Source of the DNA: Omphiscola glabra
Lineage: Eukaryota; Mollusca; Gastropoda; Lymnaeidae
NCBI GenBank assembly: GCA_964017045.1
Contig: OZ024808.1
Span: 21,411,418-21,475,417 of the forward strand
Reading direction: 5' to 3'
Length of the DNA stretch: 64,000 bases
Below, in pieces: positions 8,970-62,075 of the stretch; position 1 is the first letter of the stretch, and each line of letters opens with the position of its first letter. The translations under genes and the position numbers were made by a program. The notes under the pieces are model-generated. The model ran no database searches. It saw nothing but the letters and a program-made list of their open reading frames with translations, and was not told the origin of the DNA.

Positions 8970-9515
8970 TTATTTTGATATGAAATTAATAGAAAATTTG
9001 GCTTTAAAATTCGCATCCTCCTGGTTAAACGGATACCACATAGGGTAGTTCGTGTTCCAGATGTTGTTGTAGATGTTGAAGGAGATGTTTCGTATGCTCG
9101 AACACTCAAAGGGCTGGAGTGGCACCGGGAAAGGGGAATCGATGTGATCGGTGGTGCCGATAAGCACTAATGGCACGTCTTGGGTCCACAGCTGTAATCC
9201 TGTATTCTCACTGTCCAGTAGGTAAACATCCGTGTTGATTCCTGAATATATAAACACTTTATAAACACTATATAAACACAGAACAGGGATGGGATTCGCA
9301 ACGCGATTAAGGTCAAGATGGCGACTTGGGTTGTCTGCGCGCATGTCAAAGTTAAAAAAAAACATTTGGACATTAATTAGTGTTAAACTTAGAATAATCA
9401 GAATAATTAGGAAGGTGAAAGCATATTTAAAATGTAACCTTGCCAGCGTGTTAAGTATTTAGATATATTTTAAAACTAATGGAACTAACAATATTCACCA
9501 CAGCTGCCCGTTGTT

Positions 9516-15500: not shown

Positions 15501-18500
15501 ACTGACGAACGAGACTGGATCGGTATAAAAAACAAATGCAATAACAAAGTGAACACGGCTACATTTGCTCAGGCGTCATCGGTGAAAGTCGGTAATGCGC
15601 CCCGGTTGAATTTGTTTTTTTCGTCAGAACTGTCCGAAGCTAATTTTAAAAACAATTAAAATGGCGGCATGTAATTTTTACAGATTGTTTGTACAAAAAT
15701 GTCACCTTAAAATCTAGAATAGCCTTTCATTTGTGTATTATTCCTTTGGATCCATCATAAGTAATTTAAATATATACAAATTGTAGCATTCTATCAATTA
15801 AAATGGTAGAAATTGATTAACTAATATCTCAAGTGGATGATCGCTCTCCACTATGGGACATAGCAACCATATAACTAGAGCGATGTTCGACGGAATTGTC
15901 CGAAGCTAAATTAAAAAAAAAAACCAAGCAAATGACGTCATTGGAGCTCTTCTTTGCATCAAAAAAAACTAGATCATAGAAAAACTATCTTTATTTTTAT
16001 ATTCGTTAGCGCTAGCGGAAAGACAGTAGGGTGGAGGCCGTTGTTATGATTAAACTATAAAGTTCCGGATGCGATCGGATGCAATGTATTCTCAAGTTTT
16101 ACTATGTCCGACTTACAGTTCTACCGAGCGATCGGTCTTGTCGTCAGTCTTAGAATCCGGTGAAATCCGGACATAGTGTATTATCACCCTAACACATGTA
16201 TCGAGGAATGGTGTGTGTGGGGCTAAAAATGTTAACATACAAACAAGTAACTCAGTTTATAAGAATCACATTAGTGCTCTCACCCCCCCCCCAACCCCCC
16301 CCCCCTAGTCTCGCAACCTTCATTTGTTTCACGCCCCTAAACTATATTCATATTCTAATTCCCACCGGCTTTTACACTGCGGATTTATTTCTCCAAACAT
16401 TTTCGAAAAACAAAAAGAAAATTTTGCGCACCAAATGCACTTGTGATATTTTTTTAAAAATAGAATGTCATTCAGCACAGATGTCTGTAATTTCATTGTA
16501 TCTTCCCCTTAGAAAAACAGGAAAAACTAGTTTTTGGCGGTTGGGAGTTGGGGGCTGAAAATTTAAAAGACTGTGTTGTCATCGAGATTGAGTCCAAGTG
16601 CCCAGTTTCAGCTCGATAGGTGGTTGGCGAGAAGTGGGTCTATTAGCACCAAACAAAAGTAAAGTTAATTTAAAAGATTTGAACATGTGTTTCACCATGT
16701 AAACATTTTTTACGCTCTTATCATATTTTTATTTTCAAATGTGATCCTGATGTGCATTACAGCCATTGCGTTAGTGTAAGCTTCTTACTAGTGTTTGGAG
16801 TGGAGCTGGGATCTCTGGAGCCCGGTCTTTTTTTGCACAATGTTTGTAAAATTTCTTACTTCTCCGAGCTACAAAATTGTAATTAGTTTTTAAAATTTCA
16901 AAACTATACCATAATTTGTACCTTATATATATATTTTTTAAATTTAATTTATTAAACTTGATGCCCACTCTTCTATAGAGCTATAGTGCCCATGAATTCT
17001 ACATGCTATTTTTACAGTCACCAATGTTTTTCTCACTCATCTTCCAACTATGTTTCCTGCATTCGCTTACCAGCTTTATTGCCCCCACTCTTCTACAGCT
17101 ATGTCAACCAAATCCCCTACCAGGTATATTGCTGGTACATGCACTTCAAATGCCTAACTTAATGAGATAGGTAAGTGGCAATAAACTGAACACAATTCTT
17201 AAAACAGTACCCCTTAACTGAAGCTCGGATGGGAGCTGAAGCTGAGCAGAGAAGACAAACACATTAATCCAGAGTAGAGCTTGGCCCTAAAAGATCTGTT
17301 CCCAAAATCCCTACTACTTACCACTGAGATCTGGTTCTGTATCCTCAAGGTCTGCGTATTGTTGTTTAACTTGAGCTGCCAACGGATGATCACCAAGCGA
17401 AGAGAGGGCCAAGTCCAGGAACTCTCGCTGCTCTCTCCAAGTGTCTTCGTTTGTCTGGTATGGTATCGCTGATTAAAGTGTACGAATTCACATTGAAATG
17501 ATTTGATTATGCACCACTTATAGCTAAATGAAAACAACGTGTCTATATGTCCAAATGTTTAAGTATACATATAAAAAAGATACCAACGATATTGGTGAAT
17601 ATAAATTTACGATAGATTATTTAAAATTTAGTAATTTAAATGTTTTCATTCTCTTTATCAAGGAAAATAAAACGATAGATGATCTTTGAAGCCTTAGTAT
17701 AAAATTGTCCAACGAGTTTGATTCTAGGAAATTCTTTTTGAAAAAACTTAGAATTCCGTGGAGTGCCTACTTTTTCGTGCTACCTCCAGAGCCTCGTTGC
17801 TCCAAGCAATGTAATCAATGAGTCCATGTGACCCCCAGGTGTGCTCAGGTATCTTTATCAGGTATCGCAGCATGTTTTGTATCCGATGGTCATTTTTAGA
17901 GCAGTCCCCTGAAATTTAGATTATGATATTTGGTTATAAAGGTTGGGGATGAAATCAATAAAAACAAAATATATTAAAATTAAGTGTAATTTCCCCCATC
18001 CCCAATAACATACAGGGCTTCAGTGCCGTAACATGTGTGCTGACATGCAGTAATCCAGTGTCCTTAGTGTGTGACGACATGCAGTAATCCAGTATCCTTA
18101 GTGTGTGACGACATGCAGTAATCCAGTGTCCTTAATGTGTGACGACATGCAGTAATCCAGTGTCCTTTAGTGTGTGACGACATGCAGTAAGCCATTGCCC
18201 TTACTATATGATGACATGCAATAATCCAGTGCTTTTACTATGTGATGCCATGCAATAATCCAGTGCCCTTACCTTTTGATGACATGCAATAATCAAGTGC
18301 CCTTACTATGTGATGACATGCAATATTCCAGTGTCCTTACTATGTGATGACATGCAGTAAGACATTGCCCTTACTATGTGATGACATGTAATAATCCAGT
18401 GCCCTTACATGTGTGATGACATGCAGTAATCCAGTGCCCTTACTATGTGATTAAATGCAGTAATTCATTACCCTTACTAGATGATGACATGCAACAATGC

Positions 18501-21500
18501 AGTGCCCTTACTGTGTGAAACATGCAGTAATCCAGTGCCCTTAAATATGTGATGACATGCAGTAATCCAGTGTCCTAACATACCTGATGATATGCAAGGA
18601 TCTAGTGCCCTGAGGAATGCCCTATAGTGGGAATATTTCCATATGTCACTTGTTATGCCCTGGATCCAAGTGTCTCCAATCTCAAAGGTGCGAACAGGTA
18701 ACGTGGTTTTAACGGTGTCCAGCACTGCCACATAGTTATCGAAAGTCGACGCCACCAGCTCAGCCCCAGGAAACTCTGCTCGTAGAATCTCATAGTAGCC
18801 GAGCACTGTCTAAATTGATGAAATAAAAGACCAAAAACTGACTACACTGTCCAAGTCAAAGGGAATATAGCCGGTGAAGTTAATAAAAGTCTCTTTTGCA
18901 ATGTTAAAACAATAAATCGTACGTAATTTGAGGTTACTAACTGGCAAAAAGTTTTTTTTTAAAGGATAGCTTGTAAATCAATTATTAATTTGCAGTGAAA
19001 AAAAACTTTTTAACAAACAAAAGCAAACAAAAACGTAGTTCATAAATTTAAAACACAAATATTTGAAGATGACTTTTAAACAGGAGCCAGAATGATCAAT
19101 AAAATGATCGTGGCCCCTTAATATATAAAAGAAGAAAAAGAAGAAAGGCTGATCTCCCTTAATTTCATATCTCCAATTTCGTTTCATTGGCTGTCACACA
19201 AACGTTTTCATTCTAGGACATTTGGTTTATCTTGTATATACATTTCAGGTAATCGTCATTTGATTGAACATATTTTACACAAATAAAACAAACGAACATC
19301 TTTTTACAAAAAAATCAAAATACGTTTTCACCTCAACATCTCCCGGTGGCCCCGTGTTGTCCGTTCTGAAGGCGAAGCACAGAACCTCTTGCAGGCCATC
19401 GGCAATGATGCATTTATTTCTGGCAAGACCCCCAGGCTCACTCGGGCTGGTCCCGGGATTCAGAGGGTACCCACCTGCAGACGTAGGTCAAATAACTAAT
19501 CTTTTATAATTTAATTGATCATGTATATAAGAGCCAACATTATTTAAATACTGTTTTATTTCAACACATTATCCCACCGAAATTTCAACGTAGCGATAAA
19601 ATATATACCGCCGAATGAAGCGATCTGCAGTACAACTTTGTGCGTGAAACTGGCTTTAAGTAAATACAAGGCTTTAATGTTCATCATGAACACTTTGAGA
19701 ATTAGAACACACAAAATGAACGTGTTAAGATCATTTATCTTAGAAAAATGTTTTTCGATCAGATAAACAACAATTTGTTTTGGGGATACGTTTGCCTAAC
19801 GAATGGGCTTAGGGTGGTCTACGAGCATTAATACTAAGACTCCACTCGATACGTTGCGGGGGAATTGTGTCACTGCATAGACCAATCCCGAAAAACTCGC
19901 AGCACGTGACAACAGGTCCAACAGTAGCAACATGACAAGATTTTAAATCTAAATATGTGTTAGTGAAATATTAAAGTGTCATCGCATCTTACAGTTTATT
20001 TTTCAACTAAGCATAGCAGTTTCCGAATAATAAGGGGCCTTCATAGCAGATCGTGGCGCGCCCTGGGCAACGTAATGAACTTGTGGGGTCCTCTATTACG
20101 TTTTAAAGTAATGTTAGTAAGTAAATTTTAGATTAACCTTAGCCCATGCGTTTTTTGCAGTGTTTACTTCAGACAATGTCATTGGGGGAGGGGGGAGGAC
20201 GTCTTAACAGGTATTCAGGGATAAGGACAGAGTATCTATATTCGGTTAAATAAGGCATGATGTCACCAAGGGCCAACTCTGAATCCACCACCCCCGCCAT
20301 AAATAAACATAATTTCATTCCAGTTATAGCACCACTTGAGGGCATGCCATTGGCTCAAGCTTAGTTTAACCAGTGAAATATATCAATTAAACCATATGTT
20401 TTTAACAAATTCCAAGAAAGTAATATTTTTTGCAATTCAAAGAAAATCATTTTAATTATTAACATCCAGTACTTTATTGTAGTTAAAATGTGCCGTTGCT
20501 GTCATTTTGATCGGGTAGGGAGAAGAAATCGAGGGCGCCGAAGGCCCCCGAAATAAGCTGGGTTTGGGGACGGGTCTATGTGAATATCTTCTACAGAAAA
20601 TGTTTGATATATTCAAAATGCAGGAATTGACTTTTGCGTTTTAGGGGCATACCTAAATTTAGTTTAGCATAATTATACACTTAAGTGGTGAGAAACAGAA
20701 GAAGATCTACGGGAAAATTATTTCCCTTCAACCGGTTGTGCTTAAACAAATCTTTTTTTTTAATACTATTCTCTAAATAGTAATGTGTTATAATTTCTTA
20801 TTCAAATTGATTTTTTACAATACTTGAAAAACAGGACTCCTACCATCACTAACGTGTATTGAGCGAAAAGGAAATACAACTAAAAAAAAAAAAAACAAGT
20901 ATGAGACCTTTTTGCATTTATTTCAATTGTCAATCAAAGAATTTACTTTTAAATATATTTTAACACAATTTTAGAGATACAAAAATTCCAACAGATGTTT
21001 TATGGCTATTATTTAAAACTTGTCGTTTTTAATAAATTTCTATTAAGTCGGCAAAGTTATTTAAAGAACATAAGGTTAGATTAATGTATACAAGGAGTCA
21101 TACATTTAGTAGTACATTATTTATCTGAGGTAATTTATAGAAGCATAAATTTCCCCCTTTATTTCAGTAAATTTAAATGATGATACTATAAATTTCTTCA
21201 GATAAAATCTTATTATTGAACATATGAACATATGGCGCGAATTGAAAAACTATTTGATTTAATTTTGTCCCTCCACCCACACCCCTGATGTATATGTAAG
21301 ACTATCACAACTTTCTTCGTAGATTTGCCAACGAAATACAGTAGTTAATTTCATAGTCCTAGTAACACTATCCATTCATCAATCGCTTCTTTCCAGTCTC
21401 CTTTTACGAAACGTCTATTACCATAGAGGTCACGTGACATTGTTACCTTTGACCCAGAAAGCCATGACCCCATCTGGATCTGACTCGGAATACTTCCACA

Positions 21501-43279: not shown

Positions 43280-44097
43280 AGGACTCTCCTACATTTCGTC
43301 CAGACAATGCATCGTTGGCAACTTGTAAATGTTTCTGAGTTCTAAAATGTAGTGTCACCACTGAAGTTCCACTTGTGAATGGGATCGTTTCTCCCAACTC
43401 ATTGGTTAAAAGTATTTCCACAGTGTCAAACGAAAACCTACTTAAGGGCACATAATGGGCTTTGTCGTATGTTCTGAACAATGTCGTAACACGTTTGTCC
43501 AAAACTGGTATGGTACGTAACAGAGGAACCATCACATCTCCCACGGGTCTCGATGCGACCAGATCGCAATAGATGAATAAATTTGTTATGTCCGCATCGA
43601 TTTCAGACTCGCTAAAGTCACCGTATTGATCTGTTGGCGTTAGCCTCAGTGTGAAGAAACCCAAATAGTTTTTGAAGTTTGTCACTAATCCTAATTTCGG
43701 CTCCTGGTTCATTTATTTTCAAAACTGCCTTTCTCCCTGTTTTGTTACACTGGATAGTCATAACACCCATTTTTCCTTCACGGGTCTCCATTTTTAAAAC
43801 TTCTCGTTTCAAAGCAATAATAATAGGGTCGATTGATGTGTACATTCCAGCTGGTACGGTTAGCATTATCGATTGTTTCTCGCCCTCAGACCCATCTCGT
43901 GGTGGTTAATATTGAATCCACACTTCATCTTCAAGAATATTACAATAACTGTTGGGAAACTGAACCTCAACTAAGCCAACCTCATAATGTGAACTAACAT
44001 CGATTGATTGTGGTAACTTTACAAAGAAATGTCCTGGGTGGTTTTTCGGATATAAATCTTGTGATGAGTTTCTGGGTAGTGTCACGTAAAAACTCAT
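43257..44097 (-). pseudogene. Putative virion (penton- or capsid-associated) protein, broken
   Basis: Begins at 44097 with MSFYVTLPRNSSQDLYPKNH and GLVEVQFP. An in-frame TAA lies at 43906-43908, the same frame continues to about 43650 (VPAGMYTSID), and then a frameshift near 43650-43700 leads to a second frame ending at 43257 (FIYCDLVASRPVGD, VPLLRTIPVLDKRV). Proteins starting this way are common beside integrase and ATPase genes in marine invertebrate elements; I take them as structural, but which virion protein is uncertain. A stop and a frameshift show decay. Confidence 0.6.
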
Positions 44098-45178
44098 TGT
44101 GTCACGTCGCTAGATCGCGGTTTGATCTTGGGGTTGGGTAAAATGTACCCTAGACAACTGGACAATAAAACGAGCCACAATTTTCCCTCGTCTGGATCAT
44201 CAGAGCCTCACGTTAGATTAAATAGGGAGACGCAGATCACAATGTATATAACCAACATTTGAGAAATGAACACAATTTCCGGGCGTGTCCACAACTTGGC
44301 AAACCATAACGAGATGGCTGACGTCATGGAGGCAGTCGACAAAACAGAGGTTGGTCGCCTCTCACTAGCTGTTCTGAGCATCTCCTCTCCCTCCTCCGCC
44401 TGTAACGCGGTATCGAATAGTGTCGTGTTAGTCGTGGTTTCTTCCATAGCGCTAATCTTTATATTTTGAAATGTCTTTATCGGAAACCCAACTGTTGAAT
44501 GAGTCACTGTATCCATACCACTTCACTAAGTACTGTTTATAATCTCGTCGTCCACGCTCCCGGATAATCTTTTCGATACGATACACTTGTTTTTCTCCTA
44601 CTTTCTGAAGCTCTTCTTTATAAAAGGAACCTTTCAGTTCCATACCCGCATCATCTTTCAACACATATGTTATTGGTTTTGTTGTTGATTTGACGCGACT
44701 GATTGTAAACAATTCTTCTGTCCATGCCGGTGTATAGCCCTTTTTAAAAGTCTGTCTGCTCTGTGCGATACGAACTCTATCTCCTTGTGCAAATACTTAT
44801 AGATCGATTTTGTCTACTGTTGTGTATAAGGTATTCCATACAACTTCTTGGTTGTCTAGGCTAACCTCCACAGGCGCCATTCGAATACTCCTATGATATG
44901 AATGGTTGTAATTTTGAAGCAATTTCTGTAGCACCTCGAGGTACCGAAGTCGATTAGTTTTTGTAAAGTACCGCCACATTTTTTCTTTTAAGGTTCGATT
45001 GAACCGTTCTACCACCGATGCTTTTATGTCCTCGTTTTCTGTGGTGAAAAAATGTACGCCTTCTTCTTTAAGAAACGTTAAGAATGTTTTGTTGACAAAT
45101 TCAGAACCTTTGTCTGTTTGAAAATTTATCGGTTTACGTAGCGTGAAGATTTTACGTACCGCCTCCACTAGTTCTTTA
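43991..45178 (-). repeat. Right arm of the inverted repeat, with duplicated integrase and membrane genes
   Basis: On the minus strand: the integrase fragment (to 44797), the same TAA as the left arm (44797-44799), the chromodomain (44452-44712), the membrane protein from ATG 44447, and the start of the virion gene. A C-to-T change makes a TGA in the membrane protein (stop at 44208-44210). A His-to-Asn change precedes the second integrase Asp, and a Thr-to-Pro change lies in the membrane protein. The outer edge at 45178 cuts the integrase frame abruptly, and the next bases are unrelated. Confidence 0.88.
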
Positions 45179-47170: not shown

Positions 47171-50100
47171 TTATACAAAATTAACAGCAAATTTGAGCTT
47201 GAGGTTTTCATCCTCTTCGTTGTAGGGGTACCAGAAAATGTAGTTTGTGTTCCAGATGTTGTTGTAGATGTTGTAGGACATCGTCCTGATGCTGGAGCAC
47301 TTGATGGGCTGGAGGGGCACCGGGAAGGGCGAGTCCACATGATCCGTCGTACCAATGAGAACAACTGGAACATCCCTGCTCAAGATTTGCAAGCCATTGC
47401 CCGATTGGTTGAGCAGGCTAACACCTTTATCAATACCTAAAAGGGGGGGGGGGGGGGGGTTGCGGGTTGTGAAGAAGAACACATTTGTTAATCAGATCAT
47501 ACATAAGGTCAGAGGTAGCTTTCTTTAACTTATTACTGCAGGTGTTACATAAGATTTTTTTTTAATTAAAAAGAAAAGAATTGAAATATACCAACCATGG
47601 ACATATTGGCTGCCATTTAAGACAACATTACAAGGGTCAACACTTTGTCCCATCTTGCTCAGTGACCAAGAACCATCCACATTTTGAGGAGAGAATCCAA
47701 AAGAGATGGATTCCGGGAGTCTTGTGGTCACTTTACCCATCATCAGCAATGTTATATCTACACCTGTAATGGTGAACGTTGGAGACGTGTGTGAAAATAG
47801 GTGTAGAACATTTTTTATAAGCGTATTAATACATTTCTTGACTTCACAAGAATTTTCTTTTTATAATTCAATGTAGGAGTTTTTTTTCTTAATGAAGAAA
47901 CTATAATGTACTCTACTCTATGAACCAGAAAGCGTTGATTGGAGATGACAACACTCGTCTATCAAGAGCAGGATTGTCCTAGGCACTGAAATTACAAACA
48001 CTGAGTTTTGTCATTTTTCTAACCTCCTATGATAATTAATTAAAATATTCAGCATACCGGCACAATACTCAAAGTGGTAGCTTTGCAAAGTAAAAAAAAA
48101 GAGTTTTGGGGGGGAAAAGACATGTATTGCCTAATAGTAATAGATAAATCCTCATCTATGACAACTTTGGCTTGAGCACTGAGAACAATCTTGCGCTCAA
48201 TGCACAAATTGTGCTTTACTAAATGATCTTTAGAATCAAATTTGAAATTGCAATTAATGACAGAATGAAACACGTTACTTACAATATGGTCAACCTGAAG
48301 GATGATTGGGATAATTTACACAGGTTTGGGAAATCACTGCATTAGAGCAATGCCAACACATACCTTTGGTTGCTGGGTTGGTTGTGTACCGCACATAGAA
48401 TGCCTGTGGTGCTCCATACTTGGTGCGAGTCTGGTCATCTTTGGTGGTGGCCTTGACCCAGAAATCACAGGCTGTTGAGTTAACTGGACATGGAAATAGA
48501 ATGCAATATTTAAAAAAACAACAACTGCAAACTATCTGGCTATTAAAACAGTACAACAGTCTAAACAAATTGACATATAACTGCTTAAATAAATAGAAGC
48601 CTTATTTAAATCTGCTAGCAAAAATTAGACATTTAGAGCCTAGACAACTGTGTCAAAATGACCATCTAGACATATGATTAAGTGGAAAGTAATTGTCTAG
48701 ACATATGATTAAGTTGAAAGTAATTGCCTAGACATATGATTAAGTTGAAAGTAATTATCTAGACATATGATTAAGTTGAAAGTAATTATCTAGACATATG
48801 ATTAAGTTGAAAGTAATTGTCTTCACATATGATTATGTTGAAAGTAATTGTCTAGCCATATGATTAAGTTGAAAGTAATTGTCTAGACATATGATTAAGT
48901 TGAAAGTAATTCCTAGGAAGACAGAGAAAAAGATGGGAAGATAACATCAAAGAGTGGATGGGACTAAAACTAGGCAATGCTGTGCATAGCGCAGAAAACA
49001 GAGAGGAATGTAGAAGGAAAGTTTTCATGTCATCTGTGGCACCCCAACAGTCCAAGGACTAAGGGACATGGTGGAGATGAAATTGTAGGACTGTGCCATC
49101 ATAGAAATCATCACATATGAACTAAGCAGCTAGGGATATACTTAAAATGACTTATGTTTAAATTTGTATGATTGTAAAATGTTGTCTTGGTTAGGAAATA
49201 TGTACTTATTTATGTGCTAAAATTAAACATGTACAATGTAATTAAAAAAAATTTCCATTTCTTTGGATCAATGTCACATTAGGAAATGGCAACAGCGGGC
49301 CGTCGAGCTTATTGCTCCTTATGCCCTCCCCAAAGAACCCCCCCAAGCCCAAAAATCGGGCAACGAAGCGGCACGTTGGAGATGTCCCTTTGCCAGGACG
49401 GCCCCAACCCAAGGGCACAGGATCGACCTTCCTAGGAGTTGGGATAGTAAATTTACGTACTAATATCTTCCCTCACCCATCCCGGGGAAGCGCCGGATGC
49501 CCTACAAGAGGGATTAGGATCAATAAAGAATCTTATCTCATCTTAGCTTATCATCTTATCTTATCATCTTATATTATCTTTAACTGAAGTTTTCAAATTT
49601 CCTTGGCCATCATACAGTAAGTATGACCATTGGGCTGATGGCTGTCACAGCAATGACCACCACCAGGTATTCACACCTACCGCTTTTGTACAGATTGAGA
49701 ACCCCTATGTCCCATCTCTTCTTCTCAGGCTTGGCATACTTGTCAGCACCGTCCTTGTTAAAGCCAACACCAGCCTCATAGTTGTACAGCTTGGCCATGT
49801 CGGTGAAATCCTGCTCAACGTATGTGTCGTAGGTCAGCTGACCGAGGGGCCATGCTGGACTGGCCCATTCACGCTGGCAAAAATAAAATAATTAAAAAAA
49901 AAAAAAAAGGCTTATCTCAAATGTTTTATGAAAAGACTTTTGTTTTAACAGCTATGTTTGCTCCTTAAACATGGATTAGCTTATTTAAAATATGTGTGTT
50001 TTACAATTCTGATGTAAATCTCTTACCCTGTTTGTTATTTTTTTTTTTAAATAAGGCAAAAACAATCATTTATGATAACAGAAATTTAAACAGAAGGTGA

Positions 50101-53100
50101 TATAATATGTGCCAACTTCTATGTCATGTAAGAAATTGTAATCTTACTAAAAGTAAATTCATTTTTTTTTTATATAATAATAATAATAATAATAAAGTTT
50201 ATTTAAAAATCACGCTTCATCCCCAAAGGCTTGAAGCGCGTAAAATAAATCCGATGTTAGATGTTCGAGAGGCCTCACTGCTGCCTGTTAGTGAAAGCAT
50301 TTTAAATCAACTTATCAGTGTATTTTGGTGGTTTAATTAATTTTTATTTTTTTTTTCATTAGCACACCACATTGAAAAATCTATAAAGTATATCTATAAA
50401 TTATATATTTTTAACACATTGAGGTAAATAAAAAGAAAAAATTTGATACGCTTGAAATTTCTAATAAATAATAATGAAAAATATTTTTTTTTCCTTCTCT
50501 TTCTCCAAAATGACATGAAAGTGTAGTGACTTGATTACCTGATTGACGGGGTCATAAAGTCTGCTGAGGGATCCATCATTGGCGAACTTAAGCACCACTC
50601 CCCCTGGGCATTGATAATCTATGCCGACCTGAGCAGCAGAATAGCCTGGTAAAAGGAAGAAAAAAAAAGTTAACCTTGAAGTATAAACAAAACAAAAATA
50701 GAAATGTGGTTTCCCATTGGCTTCATTATCTTTTATAATGTCAAAAAAATATAGATAGATACATTCATCTATTTAATCTTATTTTTCAGGAAGTAACTGA
50801 TATTTTGTGATTGAATCTATATATAACTTTACACCGCTGATGCTATTTTCCCTAAGTATTTTCTCTGTGCATTTTCTCTGTATATTTTCTCTTTGTATTT
50901 TCTCTGTGTATTTTCTCTGTGTATTTTCTCTATGTATTTTCTCTATGTATTTTCTCTGTGTATTTTCTTTATGTATTTTCTCTATGTATTTTCTCTATGT
51001 ATTTTCTCTGTGTATTTTCTCTGTGTATTTTCTCTATGTATATTCTCTATGTATATTCTCTGTGTATTTTCTCTGTGTATTTTCTCTGTGTATATTCTCT
51101 ATGTATATTCTCCGTGTATTTTCTCTGTGTAGGTGTATTCACCTGAGAGATCAGGCTGCTTGGCATATAGATCCCCGTACTCCTCTTTAACCAAGCCTTT
51201 CAAAGGGTGATCCTCCAGTGCATTGAAAGCTATGTCCAAAAACTGACGCTGCTCTCTCCAGGTGTCTTCAGTTTCTGAAAAGTTGCTTGCTGAAATAAAG
51301 ACAAGGACTGGCTGAAGTACAGAGAAGAACTTGCTGAAATAAAGACAAGGATTTGCTGAAATAAAGACAAGGGCTTGCTGAAATAAAGACAAGGGCTTGC
51401 TGAAATAAAGACAAGGGCTTGCTGAAATAAAGACAAGGACTTGCTGAAATAAAGACAAGGAGACTCATGTGAGAAACGTTCTTTGAAAGGGCTCAGCAGT
51501 CCCGTCTCAGTGCCCTTAAAACCAGACAGTTATCATGAACCGGTAAAAAAAAAAAAAAGCTAAACATTTTTAATGAAAATTAGCTGCATATTTTAATAAA
51601 ATAACCCAGTTATTACAAAACCAGCACCCACACCAAAGAAATCCCTGATGGACAAAGCCAGGCAGTAGAGATCCCTTTCATGAAGTTTTTTTAAACGAAG
51701 CCCATAAAGTTATAGCCCTGAAAACTTTTAAAAGCCTACATTTCCTGGCCGCTGCCAGTTGGGCGTTGGTCCAGTTCTTATGATCCAGGAAGTCATGGGC
51801 GCCCCAAGTGTGCTCTGGGAGCTTGATCAAGAAACGCAGCATGTTCTGAATACGTGGGTCGGCATCAAGGCATTTGCCTATAATCGATACAGGGGAGCAT
51901 TAGTAAAACATTAAGAGTGTGAAAAATAATATCATTGAGCTTAATTGAAGAGTGTGACAACTTATATTTTGTCTTCTATTCCTTGCGTAAGGATAAATGA
52001 AAATTAGCATATTTTTCCTTCTTTACCATTTCTCCAATATAATTTTTTTTTAAATTTCAAAAACATGAGAAACTTTATTTCAATTTAAATGGTTGAAAGC
52101 ATTTTTTTTTAAGTGTATTTTTTTTTTTTTTAAACCCATGTAAATAAATCCTCTCTGACATCTCACTGGCCAAAACAAACATGAGGAGAAAACACACCCG
52201 CATCTCTGCACTGCTCCCAGGCTCTGACAAAAGCTCGGTACATGGTGTACTTTTTAGGATCACTGACAACACCTTGGAACCAGGTGTCACCGATTTCAAA
52301 CGACCTGATGGGCAGAGCGGACCTGACTGTCTCTAAAACTTCGACATAGTTATCAAATGTTGATGCCACAAGTTCTGCACCAGGAAATTCTGCTCTCAAT
52401 ATTTCATAATAGCCAAGAATTTCCTGAATTTAATAAGTAGACAGAAAGAAAAAATAAGTAAAACAACATGATTACTATTCAAAAAATAAATGAAAATGTA
52501 TTACTCATGTTTACGCATTTAATATCTTAATAAAAACAGCAATCCATCGAGCCGGAGCTCATTAGACCCTCCAAAGCATACCCCTCTCTCACTCCCCCCC
52601 CCCCACCAATCGGAATAAGGAAAATTTTGGCCATTGAAGTACTCTGCTGCCGAGACAGCCCCTCCCATCACCCACTCAATTGACCTGGCAAGTGGGGCAA
52701 TATCAAGCAAAGAGCATCTGGTCAGTTGGTAGTGCTGCTCCTGTAGAGCAATCCAACTTTTTAATACTAGTTGCTGTTAATGGATATGAAACTTGGGTGG
52801 TCACTAAAACCCATGTTGATGATTTTAGCTACGCGGCCGTGAGAAAGCCGCTCCTAGGCAACCGTTTCGTCCCGCCACTACCAACGTCCCGACCGAAAGA
52901 CTCCCTGGGCGGTGGGGAGTGGTAACGCAACACCAACCCCCGGAGTGGAAGCAAAGCCGTCCTGACCCACAGAGAGTTAACTGCGGACGCTTTAAACGCA
53001 GCGTCCTCGGTCGACCGGGCCTCCCCTAGGTCAAGGGGGAGGTTCCCGGCGCCCTCCCGCACGGGCTGGAGTCGGGTTAAGTCCTTCAGTGCTCTGGTTT

Positions 53101-56100
53101 GTGTGGGGGAGTGCCGGGGGGGGCATTAAGAGCTCGCGCTCGACGGCCCACCGACTCCAACTCTTATGCGACATTTTCAATACTGGAGCGGTTATATCAA
53201 CATTCTACATCGAACACCCCTTCCGACCCCCGGGTGTCATAAGATGCCCTCTAAAAGGGTTTCTACAAATTATGGTTTTCCACTAAGTATCTGGGACAAA
53301 ACAGTCCCCATAGTCTGTATGATAGAATCATCAAAATGGGCTGCCACAATCCATCCATGCCTCATATCCATTAGTGGCAACTAGCATTCATAATCCATCG
53401 CTTATCTTTATTTTATCAGAAATAAACTTTTCATCTGTCATTGTCATACACTTTTCATCTATCTTTGACATACACTTTTCATCTATTATTTCTAAAGTTG
53501 TGGAATGAATGTTCTGAAATCTTAAAAGTTGACATAATGCGCGCACACACAAACAACACATCTAGTCAGTTGATCTACAAATATGTACGGTCCCTCCCTT
53601 TGGCTTATCAAACAGGATAATGAAATAAAAAAAGCAGAGCACTAGCTCTGGAACACATTAACACAGGTACAGAAGCTCTACTGACTAAATTATCACTGCA
53701 GGTCAGCTGGCGGTACCATACAGTGCACAGATTTCCCTTACATGAGCTAGCTTACCTCAATTTCAACAGGAGGACCAGGGTTGTCAGTGCTTACCTCAAT
53801 TTCAACAGGAGGACCAGTGTTGTCAGTGCTTACCTCAATTTCAACAGGAGGACCAGTGTTGTCAGTGCTTACCTCAATTTCAACAGGAGGACCAGTGTTG
53901 TCAGTGCTTACCTCAATTTCAACAGGAGGACCAGTGTTGTCAGTGCTTACCTCAATTTCAACAGGAGGACCAGTGTTGTCAGTGCTTACCTCAATTTCAA
54001 CAGGAGGACCAGTGTTGTCAGTGCTTACCTCAATTTCAACAGGAGGACCAGTGTTGTCAGTGCTTACCTCAATTTCAACAGGAGGACCAGTGTTGTCAGT
54101 GCTTACCTCAATTTCAACAGGAGGACCAGTGTTGTCAGTGCTTACCTCAATTTCAACAGGAGGACCAGTGTTGTCAGTGCTTACCTCAATTTCAACAGGA
54201 GGACCAGTGTTGTCAGTGCTTACCTCAATTTCAACAGGAGGACCAGTGTTGTCAGTGCTTACCTCAATTTCAACAGGAGGACCAGTATTGTCAGTGCTTA
54301 CCTCAATTTCAACAGGAGGACCAGTGTTGTCAGTGCTTACCTCAATTTCAACAGGAGGACCAGTATTGTCAGTGCTTACCTCAATTTCAACAGGAGGACC
54401 AGTGTTGTCAGTTCTGAAAGCAAAGCACAGAATTTCCTCCAGACCATTAGCAATGATGCACTTGTCTCTGGCCAATCCTCTGGGGTGCGCTGGGTCCGGA
54501 CCTGGGTTCAGAGGGTAGCCACCTGGTGGAGCATTATATATCTTTACTTAATAACAACGAGGATTATATACCTATACTTAATGACAAGGAGGATTATATA
54601 CCTATACTTAATGACAAGGAGGATTATATACCTATACTTAATGACAAGGAAGATTATATACATATACTTAATACAGAGGAGTAGCGAAAAAAAAAGTGGG
54701 GGGGGGGGGGGCAGTTGTCCAAAAATGTGCTTTGATATTATATTATTGATGAAAATAATAGGTTTAAGAGTTGAAAAAAGAAAAGGGGGCACTTTGAAAT
54801 GAATCTTGTCCCCGGGCGACAAACACTCTAGCTACACCTTCGACTTAATAGCAAGGATGTTTATATACCTATACTTTGCAACAAGGAGGAAACATTCAAA
54901 AGTGGGCACCTTCTAATGATTACAAAAGTGTATGTCAACAAGCGGAAAAAGACTCTTAACCCATGTGGTCTCTTAAATATCTGTAATATTTGGGCGTCCA
55001 GCATTGGGTGTTCACTAGTAATTTTTGCGCACCAGACATTGTGTTTTATTGTGTACAGTGTATTTAAGAGTTAGTTTGGTTAATGAACCCTGTCCCCGCA
55101 TTTCAGTTGGTTTGTATATTTTATAGATTGAATTGTGATGTAGTGTCTAGACCAGTGTTTCCCAACATGGGCCCCACGCACCACAGTGGGAAAATTTGAT
55201 TGTTTAGGGGGGCGATTCAAAAATATTAAGTCAGGTTTAAAATTACTTTCAAACTTTAAAAAGACATTTTGAAGGAAAAAAAACAACATAATCTCTATTT
55301 ACTGCTCATACGGTAACTGTTAATCGTACTTTTGAGGCTAGTTATGAAATTTCCTTACTTATCACTAAATCTGGGAAAAATTATAATACATGAGAGAATG
55401 TAATCAAACCATCAATATCAGCATTTCTTAAAACGGTTCTTGAAAAAGATGACAAAGACTTGAAAGCTATGCCACTCAGTAACAATACTTTTAGCAGAAG
55501 AAAAGATTTTATGAGTGAAGATATTGAAATACAACTTGTTGAAACGATGAAAACAAGAAAATTCTCATTGCAAATGGATGAATCAACTTTGAGAGACAGT
55601 GAGGCTGTATTGATAACTTACGTAAGACATATTGATCAACGATATTTTGCTGAAGATATGTTGTTCTTTAAATCATTAGAAGGCACAGCTACCGCCCAAA
55701 TAAGCTAAAAAATTACATATATGTCAATAATATGCCAATGAAAAATATAACATCTAGTGCTGCAGATGGTGCTCCTACTATGATGGGCAAGAAAAATTGC
55801 TGCTTAAAAGAGATGAAAGATGAGAATCCAGAAATGCTACTTGTGCATTGTGTTATTCATATAGGGAAAACTTAGTACCAGGTAGCTAAAAATATTTTGC
55901 TTGTTCTAAATGAGGTACTAAATTCAGTTCTAAAGTGTATCAATACTATTAAAGCTAATGCCAAAAGTGAAAGTCTCTTCAGACTATTTTGTTAAGAACA
56001 TAATGCAAACTATTTGTGACTTTTACCTCAAAATGAAGTAAGATGGCTCTTGAAAGGGAATTGCTTGAAAAATGTATGGAACTATTTGATTCTCTTGTGA

Positions 56101-59100
56101 TTTTTTAAAGTGACAAACCTGAAATGATGTATCTGTTGATGGTGAGGCATTTGTGAGTTATTTAGCCGATATCTTTGAAAAACTAAATATATTACATAAC
56201 CAACTTCAGGCAACAACTAAAACTCTTCTCCATATAGAAATGAAGACATTTGGTTTCATTACCTTTTTGAATTATGTCACAAAAATAGTTACAACAAAAC
56301 TTTTGAAACGTTTCATTGGCTCCAAATGTGAAGTGACTGATACAGCTATACTTGTTATTGACGATCATATGCAAATTCTATCGGCTGATTTAAAAAAAAA
56401 GATTTTCTGATTTGATGCTAATTGATTTTCCAACTTGGATGATGCAGTCAATGTTAGTGGATTTGTCTGATACTTCCAATAAGCAGTATCAAGAAGAACT
56501 CGCAGAAATGCAAAATGATGAGTCAGTTAAAACTTTATTTGATATAAAAGGAACGATGACATGGCATTGTGAGGAAACAGAAATCAAATATCCAAATTCA
56601 ACCAAATGTGCAAGAAAACTATTGCTACCATTTCCATCTTCAAATTTAGCTGAATGTGGATTTAGTATCATAAATGATTTGGAGAGAAAAAACAGCAAAA
56701 AAAAAAAAACAACAAAAATAGCAATAGGTTGGATATGGATCTGTAACAGCATGGTTACATTCAACTGTGATATGTTAAGTTGTAATCTTCTTATTTTAAT
56801 TATACTTCTTTTACTGACATATACATGATCTTCACACACACGAGATAGCATGTCTTGATTTTGATCACCATTATAATTTACTCATCTATTTTTACACAAA
56901 TCCCAATAATGATAAAGTCTCCGATATGGGGAATCTGGAGACTGAAGCTGACTAAATCGGAACCTAACATAAAATATTTTTTCAGCAAAGCATCAAGCAC
57001 AAACACATCTCTAAATTTGAATAATAAATAAATAATTAAAATAATATAGAAAAATCTATCATTAAAATTATTTCGTACTTGAATTTCATTTCTCCATTTT
57101 ATGTTTTGAAAATTTACTTCCTGTGTTTCCTCACCAATTTCCTGGTGATTTCTTCCTAAGACTTAGCATTTAAGTTTCTTCAGTGAACAGCCCTATTATT
57201 TGAATATTAAAAGTTATGTATACAGGCCTGTTAACTCTTACGATTTTGGCGTACAATGTACAATTTTAAGGTGTTTACATTATATTTACTGTGTGTGTGG
57301 TTTTTTTACTATTAAGATAATGTATGGAACAATTTTGTGATGATAGTGTACGATTTTAAGAGTTTATGGGTAAACAGGTCTGTGTATATGATACATGAGG
57401 GGGGGGGCGTAAGACTTTTAGAAAGGCTTAGGTGGGCATGGCACAAAAAAGGTTGGGAAACACTGGTCTAGACTGTCTATGTGCATTTTTGGCTCAACAT
57501 TCTTGAGAGAACCTTGTACTTGCATTATTCTCCTCCTTATAGCGAGCTGTTTTATACGTGTGTTTGATTAAATATACAGTCTGATAGATGCGTTTTCTGG
57601 ATTAAAGGTTACATTGCTAATGGAAAACGATGTGTGCTCATTTCGGTGTGATAACCAATTACGAATGCGCTAAAGGATTTGATGAAAGAAACCAATCACA
57701 TATGGATACGTGAAAGACGAGAACCAAAAACAATATTCTTTATTACAATTGTGGTTTTTTTTACATTTTGTTAAAAACAGATGTTGTTAGTGGATTAAAA
57801 TTTTGTACATGAGTAACAGGTTTGTGATCTGGAAAAGCCAGGGAACCACAGTATTAAAAATATTGAAGAAATATATTCAAACTTTTTAACAAATTAAAAG
57901 TTTATACGATATAGGTAAAATTTAAATCATGTTCTTATGGCTGCTTATGCAAAATAAGATCTTTATGAAAATGTTGTGAGAAAAACACAAAACAAACTAT
58001 AAAATTTCAATTATTTCAACATACGCATCCACTCTTAGCCTTACCTTTGACCCAGAATGCCAGAAGACCTTCTTTATCAGTGTCCCTCAGCTTCCACACA
58101 AAGGGAGATGGCACGTCAGGAGGAGCAGTGCCAGGGTTGACCCCAACTGAGATGGCCTTCACACCATGAGAGGCAAGCAGCGGAAGCAATGCCTTGGTCA
58201 TACCTGATGAAAGACAAAAAAAACAATCAGCTGTGGAACTAATTTTTCTGAACTATACTAATCAAGTTCCTGTTAGACTACCTAGACACTGTGGGAGAAA
58301 TATTGACTATATTAAAAATTGTTACTTGATAATATCAAAAGAAAACAAATGCTAACAGAAATGCTACACAAGAATGTTACGAACCGAAACTGCCAAGGGT
58401 TCGATGGCGACGTTTTGTCTAGGGGTTAATTATGTAAACTTCACAAACCATTGATTATTAGAACACAGTATCTTTATTAACACACCCAATTCTTCAACCG
58501 CCATTACTTCATCACTACACGACAATAATAATATGTCATTTCCCCTTCCCACAAGTCACAAGATACTAAGCATAATAGATAAATCAACACATATAACAGA
58601 CGTGCCAAGAAAAACAAAACTTTAGGGGTGGTGCATGCGGGGGGAAAGTGGGGCCGCTGCCCCCAGGATGCGCGAACGGGGGGGGGGCCTTGGGTTTAAG
58701 ATCTGTAAACTAATGCACAAGACTTTTTTTTAGTAAATAAAGAAATATAAAGTTACCTCCATTGTCTTTGAAGAGACCAAAGAAAATTAGAAAATATACA
58801 GATTTATACAGTACAGGACAGAATATTCATTTTATTTACATATGTACACAGGCTGCTAAGAGTTCAGTTTTCTTGCCTATCCCTAGTGGCCTTTTTGCAT
58901 TTGTCCAACAGCTCTTTGGGCAACTTTCATGCTTGCCCTTGTTTCATTGTAATTTTTCTTCACACTTCTAACAATCTGTGAATGTGGAAACTTTTTTTGA
59001 CTCTGGGATCAAATTTAAAATGATCGGAGTTGGCTGGAGAAATATTTCCTTCAATAAGAGAGGCGGTCAATAAAACGTCCGATTCCTTAGCAAAGAAATC

Positions 59101-62075
59101 AGACTTTGATGTCGTAGATTCACTGCACTTTTAGCTGCAGTTGTATAACTTCATGTTGTTCGTTGTGTTTTTTTATGTGTGTTAAAATAACGGTATGTTT
59201 ATTAATATCATTGTACACACCACTTTCAATAGATTTATCCATTTAAATTTAATAAAGAAAACTTTAACAAAAAGTCACAACACAACTGAATTATTTTTAG
59301 CCTAGTAAAAGGATGAATCGCGATCCGATCAATTGACAATTGAAGAATGATTTGGAGATCGTGGCTCGCTTCAATAAAAACAAGGCAGTGTCTACACGTC
59401 CGGTGACCAGACTGATCGACTATTTAGCGGTTACGGCGCTCATTTGACTTCATTAAATATATAATAGTAATAGCCGGGCGAATATCTCGAGAACTTATTC
59501 GTCCGGTCGCCGGACATGTTGACACTACATAAAAATAAAGGAATTCACCACTTCCTGTCGTATCCGATTTTTTAAATTTTTTTTCGCTTTCGGATTTTTA
59601 TGACGGGTGAAAAATTATAAAGTTCGGAAAATCGGAATTTTTACGGGTTTGTCGGAAGGTCGGAACAAGGGGTAAAAATCCGTAGAATTCCGACAAAATC
59701 GGAAGGGTTGGCAGGTCTGATATAATCTCTAAACAACACGCAATCCCAATACACATTGAAGTCCTTAACAAAGAAGGCTGAATAACTTAATATAAATTAG
59801 TTGATCTTACCGGGGATGTCTCTTTGACTCATGGTCGCGTGTGTTCTTCGAATACCAAACATGGCATCCAGCCTTTGGCCCAGCTCAAGCCCGAAAGAAA
59901 AGAGGTTGGCACCCAGGAAGTCCGTCTGAATGTTCATGGTGAAGGCGTGCCAGGCGATGTGTCCTTCAACAACTGCCTTCCTGAAGTCATCCTGCTCGGT
60001 TTTATTTGGACACTGCATGATGACAGAATGGAACAGTTCTTGATATCCAGAATTGTTACAAAAAGGTTTTTAGCCCCACAAAAAAATTGTAGCGGGACTT
60101 TGGAGCACGAAAGATTTGAGAGTGCTCTTAGCAATTCATCTGGAAATCTGGGCTCGGGTATTTATAGAGGGCAGGCTAGGGAAAGTAGGAGGAGCCAGTT
60201 CAGGGAATAAGGTTAAGATGACAGGAGAGAGCGAGGCGACTGAGAACTGCGTTGGGGAGAGTAGGACTTTACGTGGGTGAGTGCTGGTTAGACTAGAGAT
60301 TATGTCTATAAAATTTCTCGTTTACCTTTAACTGGACACCCATTAGTTTGATGTCTGGACAATCCAGATAGAGTGAGACCAGCCAAGGGTGGGTTGTGTA
60401 GAGGAACCTTTCTGTGTAGCCAAGCTTGATTAGGCTGCGAGAGATGTTGATGGCCCTGACAAAGTATTCCGACTGGTAGCGATTCAGAACTTGAACTGCA
60501 AACCCAGCATCTTGATCCAGGCCGTCATAATAGCCAACATCTGGAATTTAAGAAATAAAAACTTAGCCAACATCTGGAATTTAAGAAATAAAAACTTAGC
60601 CAACATCTGGAATTTAAGAAATAAAAACTTAGCCAACATCTGGAATTTAAGAAATAAAAACTTAGCCAACATCTGGAATTTAAGAAATAAAAACTTAGCC
60701 AACATCTGGAATTTAAGAAATGAAAACTTAGCCAACATCTGGAATTTAAGAAATAAAAACTTAGCCAACATCTGGAATTTAAGAAATAAAAACTTAGCCA
60801 ACATCTGGAATTTAAGAAATAAAAACTTAGCCAACATCTGGAATTTAAGAAATGAAAACTTAGCCAACATCTGGAATTTAAGAAATAAAAACTTAGCCAA
60901 CATCTGGAATTTAAGAAATAAAAACTTAGCCAACATCTGGAATTTAAGAAATAAAAACTGTTATTGTAGACCAAATAAAATGAAATCAACTGTAAACTTA
61001 ATGGAATAAGTAAATCTATAGTTTTGAACAACAGTCAATAGTAAAATTTGAGCACTTGTCATGATGATATTCCAGGACGCCTGAGAAACAAACAGGGCAA
61101 ATATTCATTGCTGACAAGATTTTAGGAATCTTGAACATATCATAATTCTGGGGGCCTAACAATGACATAGTCAACTAATCATACATATCATTCAAATATA
61201 TGTGATAGTTCAAATGAACAAAGAATTTACAAAGACATGAAGAGTAAGTTTTAAGCTACAGATTTATCAAGATGATTCATACAGACATTTTAAGCTACAG
61301 ATTTACCAAGATGATTCATACAAACATTTTAAGATACAGACTTACAAAGATGATTCATACAAACATTTTAAGATACAGACTTACCAAGATGATTCATACA
61401 AACATTTTAAGATACAGACTTACCAAGATGATTCATACAAACATTTTGAGATACAGACTTACCAAGGTGATTCATAAAGACAATATGAACTTTCTTGATA
61501 GGTGTATCAGAGCTCATTTTAAATACCTGGGGAAAATTAGTAAGAATTAGAGAATATTTGATGTTGAGGATTAACAAACAACAAAAAATTTACTGCAGTG
61601 GTTCCCAACCTTTTGACTCGTGGAGCCCTTTCTAGAAACATTATATATGGGGAAGTGCCTTAGGCCTACAGAATGTCATCCAGTTAATATTGTTTATTAA
61701 GGTATTCCTGTAGCTGCTGCGGAGCCCCTGAGGACTGGTTGGGAATCTCTGCACTACTGGATTAAACAAGTACCAAGTTTTTCCACAGCTTGTTTCAGTT
61801 TCAACATATGTTGCCATGGTTACTCCATCATCAGTTTTAATAAGCCAAACTATTTAGAATATTTGGCTTCTAGTATAGTAGGTCTGACATCTTAAAATAA
61901 ACAAATAGTTACAAGCAAAGGGAAAATACAAAGCATATTTTTATAATTTATAATACACTTTTTTATTTTTAACCCAAAAAAAGAGAAAAGAAATACTTAC
62001 ATTTTGGTGTTTAAGTGCTACGGCAGCTATAAAAATCTGGCCACAAATAATCACCATATGGGATATGGTCAACAT
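47171..62075 (-). CDS. Secreted DUF5054/GH38-like protein, tandem copy 3 (14 exons)
   Basis: Exons: 62075-62001, 61526-61463, 60540-60326, 60012-59811, 58203-58045, 54522-54380, 52423-52198, 51877-51740, 51289-51143, 50645-50539, 49873-49681, 48483-48364, 47763-47596, 47436-47171. They sum to 2223 nt, 740 residues, with all junctions GT-AG and phases equal to copy 1. Residues 1-20 form a hydrophobic signal sequence. VHIVFMNHLDVGYYDG (38-53) carries the HLD motif, FEIGDTWFQG is in exon 7, and TRLPESISFGFSP is in exon 13. Differences from copy 1 are mainly substitutions, a two-codon shorter exon 12 and a two-codon shorter exon 14. Splice junctions of exons 2, 3, 6 and 9 are embedded in minisatellites made from the junction itself. 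I chose the first of two ATGs in exon 1. The family assignment is from memory of the motifs; the substrate is unknown. Confidence 0.85.
48660..48912. repeat. 31-bp minisatellite, 8 units, intron 11 of copy 3
   Basis: Units GTCTAGACATATGATTAAG then TTGAAAGTAATT, nearly identical. The array ends where a LINE fragment begins. Confidence 0.95.
48916..49062 (+). mobile_element. C-terminal fragment of a non-LTR retrotransposon ORF
   Basis: The plus-strand frame GRQRKRWEDNIKEWMGL...SSVAPQQSKD followed by a stop (49060-49062) matches the C-terminal end often seen in mollusc LINE reverse-transcriptase proteins. Only 48 codons remain. Confidence 0.65.
49270..49600 (+). mobile_element. Probable LINE or SINE 3' end with ATCTT-type tail
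   Basis: A more GC-rich block (GGCAACAGCGGGCCGTCGAG, CACCCATCCCGGGGAAGCGC) ends in GATTAGGATCAATAAAGAAT and a tail of repeated TCATCTTATCTTA. The AATAAA plus a short-repeat tail is the pattern of a non-LTR element 3' end. The family is unknown. Confidence 0.5.
50175..50290 (-). mobile_element. SINE/LINE 3'-end-like insertion, second copy
   Basis: Same family as 14971-15092: on the minus strand it has CGCTTCAAGCCTTTGGGGAT and an AAATAAACTTTATTATTATT tail. It lies in intron 10 of copy 3. Confidence 0.6.
50862..51130. repeat. 13-bp minisatellite just downstream of the exon 9 donor of copy 3
   Basis: About 20 units of TATTTTCTCTGTG (plus strand). On the coding strand it starts about 12-15 bp after the donor GTGAATACACC, and the unit AGAGAAAATACAC shares AATACAC with the donor flank. 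Confidence 0.9.
51285..51462. repeat. 22-bp minisatellite carrying the exon 9 splice acceptor of copy 3
   Basis: Eight units. On the coding strand each carries CTTTATTTCAG followed by CAAG, the same sequence as the true exon 9 acceptor (exon starts 51289). Seven are exact in this core and the second from the exon is degenerate. Each unit thus offers a full acceptor. Only shifts of three units (66 bp) keep the reading frame, which is open upstream for about 55 codons. Confidence 0.9.
52424..53755. other. Intron 6 of copy 3 with a GC-rich insert
   Basis: From about 52820 to 53270 the sequence is strikingly GC-rich compared with its surroundings (GCGGCCGTGAGAAAGCCGCT, GGTCGACCGGGCCTCCCCTA). It resembles a non-LTR element 5' region or a rearranged GC-rich repeat, but there are no paired ends and no convincing ORF. 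It ends in AT-rich sequence with three repeats of CATACACTTTTCATCTA-like phrases near 53440-53480. Confidence 0.5.
53756..54421. repeat. 39-bp array of 17 units built from the exon 6 splice donor of copy 3
   Basis: The first unit is the last 42 nt of exon 6 (54421-54380). Sixteen more follow with almost no divergence. On the coding strand each unit reads GACAACACTGGTCCTCCTGT, then GAAATTGAG, then GTAAGC. Every unit therefore ends in the same donor GAG|GTAAGC at 39-bp intervals from 54380 to 53756. Thirteen codons per unit and no stop until GTAAGCTAG after the last donor mean the frame is open through the array (NTGPPVEIEVSTD repeat). Copy 1 has one unit only, with donor GAG|GTGAAA. Confidence 0.95.
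54530..54672. repeat. About 33-bp tandem repeat upstream of the exon 6 acceptor of copy 3
   Basis: Four to five units with GAGGATTATATACCTATACT and TAATGACAAG. The unit nearest the exon (from about 54528) is a diverged version that runs up to a few bases from the acceptor. Exon 6 is thus flanked by arrays on both sides. Confidence 0.85.
54674..54842. mobile_element. hAT-type MITE, second copy of the 379-569 family
   Basis: The 169-bp element starts CAGAGGAGTAGCG and ends CTCTAGCTACACCTTCG. It is flanked by ACTTAATA on both sides (54666-54673 and 54843-54850). The interior shares TTGATGAAAATAAT and CAAACACTCTAGCTAC with the copy at 379-569. The target was a unit of the 33-bp array. Confidence 0.85.
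55153..57465 (+). mobile_element. hAT transposon (ZBED-type), 2313 bp, with intact ends
   Basis: Terminal inverted repeats CAGTGTTTCCCAAC and GTTGGGAAACACTG are flanked by GTCTAGAC on both sides (55145-55152 and 57466-57473), an 8-bp duplication typical of hAT. G-rich sub-terminal runs occur near both ends. The element lies in intron 5 of copy 3. Its transposase gene is decayed. Confidence 0.92.
55385..56790 (+). pseudogene. hAT transposase, ZBED5/SCAND3-like, with stops and frameshifts
   Basis: Fragments in order: 55460-55708 with FSLQMDESTLRDSEAVLITY, matching the start of the RNase H-like catalytic region; an intermediate broken part (55709-56150) where short matches such as GADGAPTMMGKK-like and LVHCVIH can be read across frames; 56153-56410 (LADIFEKLNILHNQLQ); and 56412-56828 ending with LLPFPSSNLAECGFS, the hAT dimerisation region. 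Several stops and frame changes interrupt it and the N-terminal zinc finger is not seen. Non-functional. Confidence 0.8.
58206..59810. other. Intron 4 of copy 3
   Basis: Mostly AT-rich. A G-rich phrase at 58622-58690 (TAGGGGTGGTGCATGCGGGG) resembles the start of the MITE at 9774, but no other end was found. It contains the small element at 59387-59526. No ORF is supported. Confidence 0.45.
59387..59526. mobile_element. Short inverted-repeat element, about 140 bp
   Basis: Ends AGTGTCTACACGTCCGGTGA and the inverse of AGTGTCAACATGTCCGGCGA, an imperfect inverted repeat of about 25 bp. No clear target duplication. Probably a MITE of unknown superfamily. Confidence 0.6.
60529..60961. repeat. 33-bp array of 13 units carrying the exon 3 splice acceptor of copy 3
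   Basis: On the coding strand each unit has TTTATTTCTTAAATTCCAG followed by ATGTTGGCT, the true junction of exon 3 (exon starts 60540). There is one real acceptor and twelve copies at 33-bp spacing from 60574 to 60937. In the copies the exon-like stretch is followed by AAG. In the gene frame this gives a TAA two codons after the shared Asp, so use of any upstream acceptor would end the protein at once. Two units have GAAAAC for AAAAAC on the plus strand; otherwise they are uniform. Confidence 0.93.
61255..61480. repeat. 39-bp array of about 6 units carrying the exon 2 splice donor of copy 3
   Basis: On the coding strand units read TTTGTATGAATCATCTTG then GTAAGTCTGTATCTTAAAAT. The first 18 bases correspond to the end of exon 2 (FMNHL plus G) and the rest to the intron start. 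The real donor follows base 61463 and the copies lie at 61424, 61385, 61346 (CTTTGTAAGT) and 61307 (CTTGGTAAAT); the outermost is degraded. Splicing at 61424 would insert 13 residues in frame and repeat the MNHL motif. The next units contain an in-frame TAA. Confidence 0.9.
61596..61751. mobile_element. hAT-type MITE in intron 1 of copy 3
   Basis: Begins CAGTGGTTCCCAACCTTTTG and ends GGTTGGGAATCTCTG, an imperfect inverted repeat of about 15 bp, with GGAGCCC repeated inside near both ends. The flanking 8-mers ATTTACTG and CACTACTG share only TACTG, so the target duplication has decayed or is doubtful. Confidence 0.65.

Follow-up and report, generated by a model that had tools for sequence, protein, structure and literature searches.

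Competition among identical splice donors has mostly been studied with engineered duplications. In the human CBS gene, a VNTR is located at the exon 13/intron 13 boundary, and each of its units presumably carries the donor. This 31-bp repeat, c.1444_1467+7(16_21), is reported in 16 to 21 copies in people and, judging by its name, has a unit of 24 exon-end and seven intron bases (PMC2630376). In recently duplicated human genes, located in segmental duplications, minisatellites with units of about 30 bp are reported at exon-intron boundaries together with altered splicing (PMC2812944). On a smaller scale, GYNGYN tandem donors are described as two competing donors within a six-base motif that give rise to subtle protein variation (PMC1779574). 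As to the choice between two donors, work on human genes reports that SRSF1 can promote use of the intron-proximal one and hnRNP A1 that of the intron-distal one (PMC5585400).

The array described here, at the end of exon 6 of a gene of Omphiscola glabra, is a member of the CBS-type kind with an in-frame period: its unit straddles the junction, with 33 bases on the exon side and six on the intron side, and is present in 17 copies. Whereas the 31-bp unit of CBS is not a multiple of three, the unit at exon 6 is 39 bp long and the frame is open in all units. The array also resembles the repeats in segmental duplications in being a minisatellite at an exon-intron boundary, but those are reported to have about four units on average, to be supported by RNA and to represent novel intron formation (PMC2812944), whereas the exon 6 array is known from sequence alone. 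With the GYNGYN motifs, which involve two donors and no minisatellite as described (PMC1779574), it shares closely spaced competing donors and the potential for subtle protein variation.

An array of splice donors in a DUF5054 gene

The 64-kb window, that is, the whole stretch of DNA analysed (64,000 nucleotides), carries one gene in three copies, A, B and C, all on the minus strand. Copy C, which bears the array, matches Pfam family PF16477 (DUF5054) with 124.1 bits (cut-off 37.6; E = 1.4e-35). The array-bearing gene is described here as an enzyme gene; a literature search on DUF5054 returned nothing. The features of copy C that are relevant to exon 6 are the following.

47171..61517, minus strand: copy C gene, with 13 coding exons, 12 GT-AG introns and a 712-aa open frame (DUF5054)
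54380..54522, minus strand: exon 6 of copy C up to the exon-proximal donor, the predicted main donor; 143 nt, ending in phase 0
53750..54412, minus strand: 39-bp minisatellite of 17 units, from the tandem repeat call and an exact listing
54341 down to 53756 in 39-bp steps, minus strand: last exon bases of the further 16 donors, all in frame
52198..52423, minus strand: exon 7, whose acceptor would be shared by all 17 donors

The array consists of 17.0 units with a period of 39 bp and 99% match (score 1305), each unit comprising the terminal bases of exon 6 followed by GTAAGC, the opening six bases of intron 6. The exact listing of the minus strand bears out what the sequence-only reading of this DNA had claimed, namely, that all 17 units end in GAG|GTAAGC with phase 0 at each donor and that no stop occurs before the last of them: the frame is open throughout, and a TAG follows immediately after the last GTAAGC. 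If read, the array translates as TDNTGPPVEIEVS per unit. When each donor in turn was placed in the spliced model and joined to exon 7, which begins at 52423 and is preceded by ...TTAAATTCAG, the conceptual protein remained intact in 17 of 17 cases and ranged from 712 to 920 aa, so that, as had been proposed, 0 to 16 extra 13-residue segments could be added without breaking the protein. By contrast, the insertion point proposed earlier, between residues 286 and 287, was not reproduced: counted from the ATG at 61517, with which the open frame of copy C starts, the junction falls between residues 258 and 259, because no convincing coding exon was found upstream. A candidate signal-peptide exon at 62737 was rejected, given that its frame of 25 residues is closed by a TAA and no convincing donor was seen at its end, with GT dinucleotides lying inside it. 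Nor was a separate exon 5 found, exon 4 joining exon 6 in phase; the exon names of the earlier reading are nevertheless kept.

As a repeat, the array obviously did not originate by chance. The units differ by three substitutions over their total of 663 bases. Two of these, in units 2 and 4, are the same silent C to T change in an Asn codon, suggesting that the array may have grown block-wise, and the third, an A to C change in unit 17 that replaces Thr with Pro, is the sole nonsynonymous one. This near-identity supports the youth of the array, as suggested previously, and makes variation of its length between individuals likely, as judged from the single assembly. Long near-identical arrays are difficult to assemble, and the array might accordingly be collapsed, expanded or not real. 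However, it contains the variant units 2, 4 and 17, its DNA was found in one place in its own genome (with a search that skips simple repeats and very common words), and like arrays are present at other loci, all of which render an assembly artefact highly improbable.

The calculated U1 duplex energy is -9.6 kcal/mol at each of the four array donor positions for which it was computed, within the range of the other donors of the gene (-4.0 to -10.9 kcal/mol). Given such alike energies, the choice of donor would have to depend on position. Identical strength at these four positions, together with an intact protein for every donor, is what one would expect if several of the 17 donors were used and yielded a ladder of isoforms, either as noise or with some function, and human exon-intron boundary repeats are reported to be able to yield alternative splicing patterns (PMC2812944). 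Nevertheless, we consider use of several donors unlikely, in view of the paralogue comparison that follows and of the evidence from other exon ends and from array periods presented below.

Copies A and C were modelled from e1 to the stop, with boundaries at exons 10 and 13 of copy A corrected by one base and its exon 12 donor guessed; their conceptual proteins are 66% identical. For copy B, matches were found to exons 8-14 only, and none to exon 6. Searched at an E threshold of 0.001, the 745-Mb genome gave 31 matches of the protein, all of them inside the window, which limits the paralogue comparison to copy A. The counterpart of exon 6 in copy A (19332-19474) is homologous and has one ordinary donor, with the array absent at this exon. 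Thus, conservation of the array at the same exon was not observed among the paralogues, the donor being single in copy A and the exon unmatched in copy B, and this argues against a ladder of isoforms. A pattern screen for relatives among genome contigs matched 128 stretches, with 0 confirmed.

The length of exon 6 bears on the opposite extreme, in which the intron-proximal donor at 53756 would be the default, the whole array exonic and the protein endowed with a 208-residue repeat. SR proteins are reported to be able to shift the choice between two donors to the intron-proximal one (PMC5585400), no stop interrupts the frame within the array, and the sole nonsynonymous change sits in the last unit. 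However, the last donor would lengthen exon 6 to 767 nt, from 143 nt with the first one, compared to 107-226 nt for the other ten internal exons modelled, and the same rule would break exon 1 as well as the frame-breaking donor arrays elsewhere. Protein modelling does not rescue this explanation either. The repeat would be inserted between the TDNTGPP stretch, common to copies A and C, and the next conserved stretch. AlphaFold2 run without an alignment on exon 6 plus the array predicted regular beta strands (pLDDT 72, pTM 0.71), but the antisense frame of the array was modelled with higher confidence (pLDDT 89, pTM 0.83). We therefore discarded the beta-strand model as evidence for a folded segment; it does not discriminate between the two frames and says nothing about function. 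Among 127 PDB matches to the array repeat, none reached E 0.001, and residues 1-464 of copy C had no match among solved structures. Taken together, default use of the 53756 donor appears very improbable.

Sibling arrays at other junctions of the gene

Exon 6 is not the only exon with an array across its boundary. Three further arrays overlap junctions of copy C and one overlaps a junction of copy A.

61249..61476, minus strand: 39-bp array at the exon 1 donor CTTG|GTAAGT of copy C, 5.8 copies
60531..60959, minus strand: 33-bp array at the exon 2 acceptor TTCCAG|ATGTTGG of copy C, 13 near-identical copies
51286..51461, minus strand: 22-bp array at the exon 9 acceptor TTTCAG|CAAG of copy C, eight copies, reaching 4 nt into the exon
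18021..18611, minus strand: degenerate 34-bp array over the exon 7 donor of copy A, the exon ending at 18584

The protein is far less tolerant of these arrays. At exon 1, two of the six GTAA[GA]T sites, one of which lies just past the array, keep the protein intact; at exon 9, three of the eight acceptors do so. At exon 2, the protein is preserved with the exon-proximal acceptor alone (1 of 13), in-frame stops in every unit making the last acceptor the one that is usable. In each of the three cases, the protein-preserving choices include the exon-proximal site, and at exon 1 the donors drift from the consensus with distance from the exon. Hence, production of the copy C protein would require that splicing mostly picks the exon-proximal acceptor at exon 2 and one of the first two donors at exon 1. 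The same exon-proximal choice is the parsimonious expectation for exon 6. The dependence of the arrays in copy C on the exon-proximal site, or on one of a few sites, also counts against a ladder of isoforms.

Additional arrays end 6 to 12 bases short of junctions, namely, 54528-54681 (exon 6 acceptor) and 50844-51131 (exon 9 donor) in copy C, and 14788-15263 (exon 10 acceptor) and 9247-9279 (exon 14 acceptor) in copy A.

Minisatellites in the genome and donor arrays in other genes

To place these arrays in context, we ran TRF on 20 stretches of 10 kb, taken at 1, 5, 9 and 13 Mb of five contigs (C1-C5), and found 192 arrays with a period of 7 or more that cover 74,762 of the 200,000 bases. Two of the stretches (L014 and L018, on contigs C4 and C5) are each wholly one tandem array, and coverage of the remaining 18 ranges from about 2% to 59%. 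Splice motifs are not generally enriched in these arrays. Compared to shuffles of the array units that preserve base composition only, GGTAAG is present in 2 of the 192 consensus units (shuffle mean 3.0), GGTRAG in 2 (6.1), GTAAG in 15 (12.4) and TTNCAG in 8 (11.7). Genome-wide, three occurrences of AGGTAAG at array spacing gave 9,396 matches versus 9,859 for the reversed pattern, and three of CAGGTAAGT gave 595 versus 1,005, these figures being matches, dominated by long arrays, rather than distinct arrays. The unit shuffles and reversed-pattern counts thus show no general enrichment and indicate that array units have no general preference for donors.

The junction arrays of the window are nonetheless in mild excess, in a window that was chosen because of it. 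In a random-seed model, the chance of a junction being captured in an array is 2.6% with the array density of the window and 4.1% with that of the sample. Across the 50 junctions of copies A and C, with the exons of copy B left out of the count, four arrays were counted versus 1.29 expected (P = 0.04, post hoc); for copy C alone, the corresponding numbers are three versus 0.37 (P = 0.006, post hoc). The exon 9 array is one base under the threshold and, if added, would raise the counts to four (copy C) and five (window).

Donor arrays are found at exon ends of other genes as well. Among the listed matches to three occurrences of CAGGTAAGT, covering contig C1 and contig C2 up to 55.74 Mb, we counted 18 distinct arrays; for four of them (L026, L028, L041 and L042), protein libraries were queried, and the other 14 were assessed by visual inspection of the 200 bases upstream. 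In 3 of the 18, the first donor ends an exon resembling a known protein: an ELP1-like exon (PDB, E = 0.001; Pfam, 8.8e-6, slightly below its cut-off), a ZCCHC4-like exon (PDB, E = 7e-4) and, weakly, a gastric/lysosomal lipase-like exon (PDB, E = 0.074; no Pfam match). A fourth exon, at L041, is probable from its frame and acceptor alone and has no Pfam match. At the remaining 14 arrays, no exon was seen by eye, several of them having unsearched open frames of 34 to 40 residues. Six loci were also chosen by eye among the listed matches to three occurrences of AGGTAAG: L026, L027 and L028 match known proteins, L025 may be an exon, and L024 and L029 showed none. At L027 (contig C1, about 6.07 Mb), a 32-bp donor array lies at the end of an adenylate cyclase exon (E = 2.9e-28).

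The first donor alone keeps the frame open at L026, L027, L028 and L042; in the ELP1-, adenylate cyclase-, ZCCHC4- and lipase-like exons, the later donors shift the frame or run into stops. These exon ends, too, need the exon-proximal donor, contrary to what a ladder of isoforms would lead one to expect. Furthermore, the donors lose the consensus away from the exon in L027, where the donor has turned into ATAAGC by the fourth unit, and in L028. L042, with an array of at least eight units that runs to the end of its stretch, is an exception, and the lipase-like locus has a decayed second donor followed by later ones without decay. L041 (contig C2, about 48.41 Mb) carries a second in-frame 39-bp donor array, with three units of about SPYNLPPPSTPGK each; all three donors keep the frame open.

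Across the eight junction donor arrays (exons 1 and 6 of copy C, exon 7 of copy A, L026, L027, L028, L041 and L042), the period is divisible by three in three, compared to 70 of the 191 sampled arrays with a period of 10 or more. There is thus no sign of selection for frame preservation, although eight arrays are few. The background frequency of such periods, together with the absence of a stop from GTA AGC read in phase 0, makes the in-frame position of the exon 6 array less remarkable. This frequency likewise weighs against a ladder of isoforms.

Donor choice and the origin of the exon 6 array

The explanation that we favour, and consider probable, is that the exon 6/intron 6 junction served as the nucleus of a young minisatellite and that mainly the exon-proximal donor at 54380 is used. 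Arrays are common in the Omphiscola glabra genome and may sometimes catch a splice junction. In this case, a 39-bp segment made up of the last 33 exon bases and GTAAGC would have been tandemly duplicated in an intact DUF5054 gene and expanded to 17 units, recently as judged from their near-identity. The spliceosome would use mainly 54380, leaving the array in the intron, and the downstream donors would contribute no more than minor isoforms, longer by multiples of 13 residues, which could be tolerated because 39 is divisible by three. Donor usage, length polymorphism and the lack of function are all points that we infer. Both the sibling arrays and the exon length argue for the exon-proximal (intron-distal) donor at exon 6. 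Accordingly, the proposal made in the sequence-only reading that the array is a built-in device for varying protein length has fared poorly: most choices in the sibling arrays would break the protein, the donor arrays of other genes mostly break the frame, the periods follow the background frequency, and no array is present at the counterpart exon of copy A. Most likely, then, the exon 6 array arose by accident and is tolerated, without constituting such a device.

Several considerations run against the favoured explanation. The U1 duplex is equal at the four positions computed, and nothing local marks the first donor; the junction arrays of copy C exceed the random-seed expectation, the P values being post hoc; decay at the lipase-like locus affects the second donor and spares later ones; SRSF1 is reported to be able to promote intron-proximal donors in human genes (PMC5585400); and the donor usage that we infer in other genes presumes that those genes work.

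A broader proposition, to which we give slightly less than even odds, is that minisatellites have repeatedly captured junctions of many genes in this genome, conserved ones included, leaving tandem runs of 3 to 17 near-identical donors or acceptors in the transcripts, that the splicing machinery keeps to the exon-proximal copy, and that leakage at exon 6 yields a length-variable protein that differs between individuals. Among the open-licence papers listed by our searches, none was found to report arrays of this kind at many junctions within a single genome. This recurrence across genes is the new part, and it amounts to a natural test of the choice among identical donors: one genome offers a natural series in which the arrays comprise 3 to 17 donors or acceptors, have periods ranging from 22 to 44 bp and lie either in or out of frame, and some of them belong to genes that presumably need to function. 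The arrays furthermore illustrate a way in which a protein could gain a repeat segment from a minisatellite while its reading frame is kept.

Apart from the DUF5054 gene copies, the window contains a 1188-bp inverted duplication (42076-43263 and 43991-45178; 99.7% identical) that adjoins integrase-like and ATPase-like frames, which resemble a Polinton/Maverick element. Three related single-exon frames (1080-2165, 4520-5635 and 28574-29590), the last two of which are 80% identical in DNA, resemble rhodopsin-type receptors.
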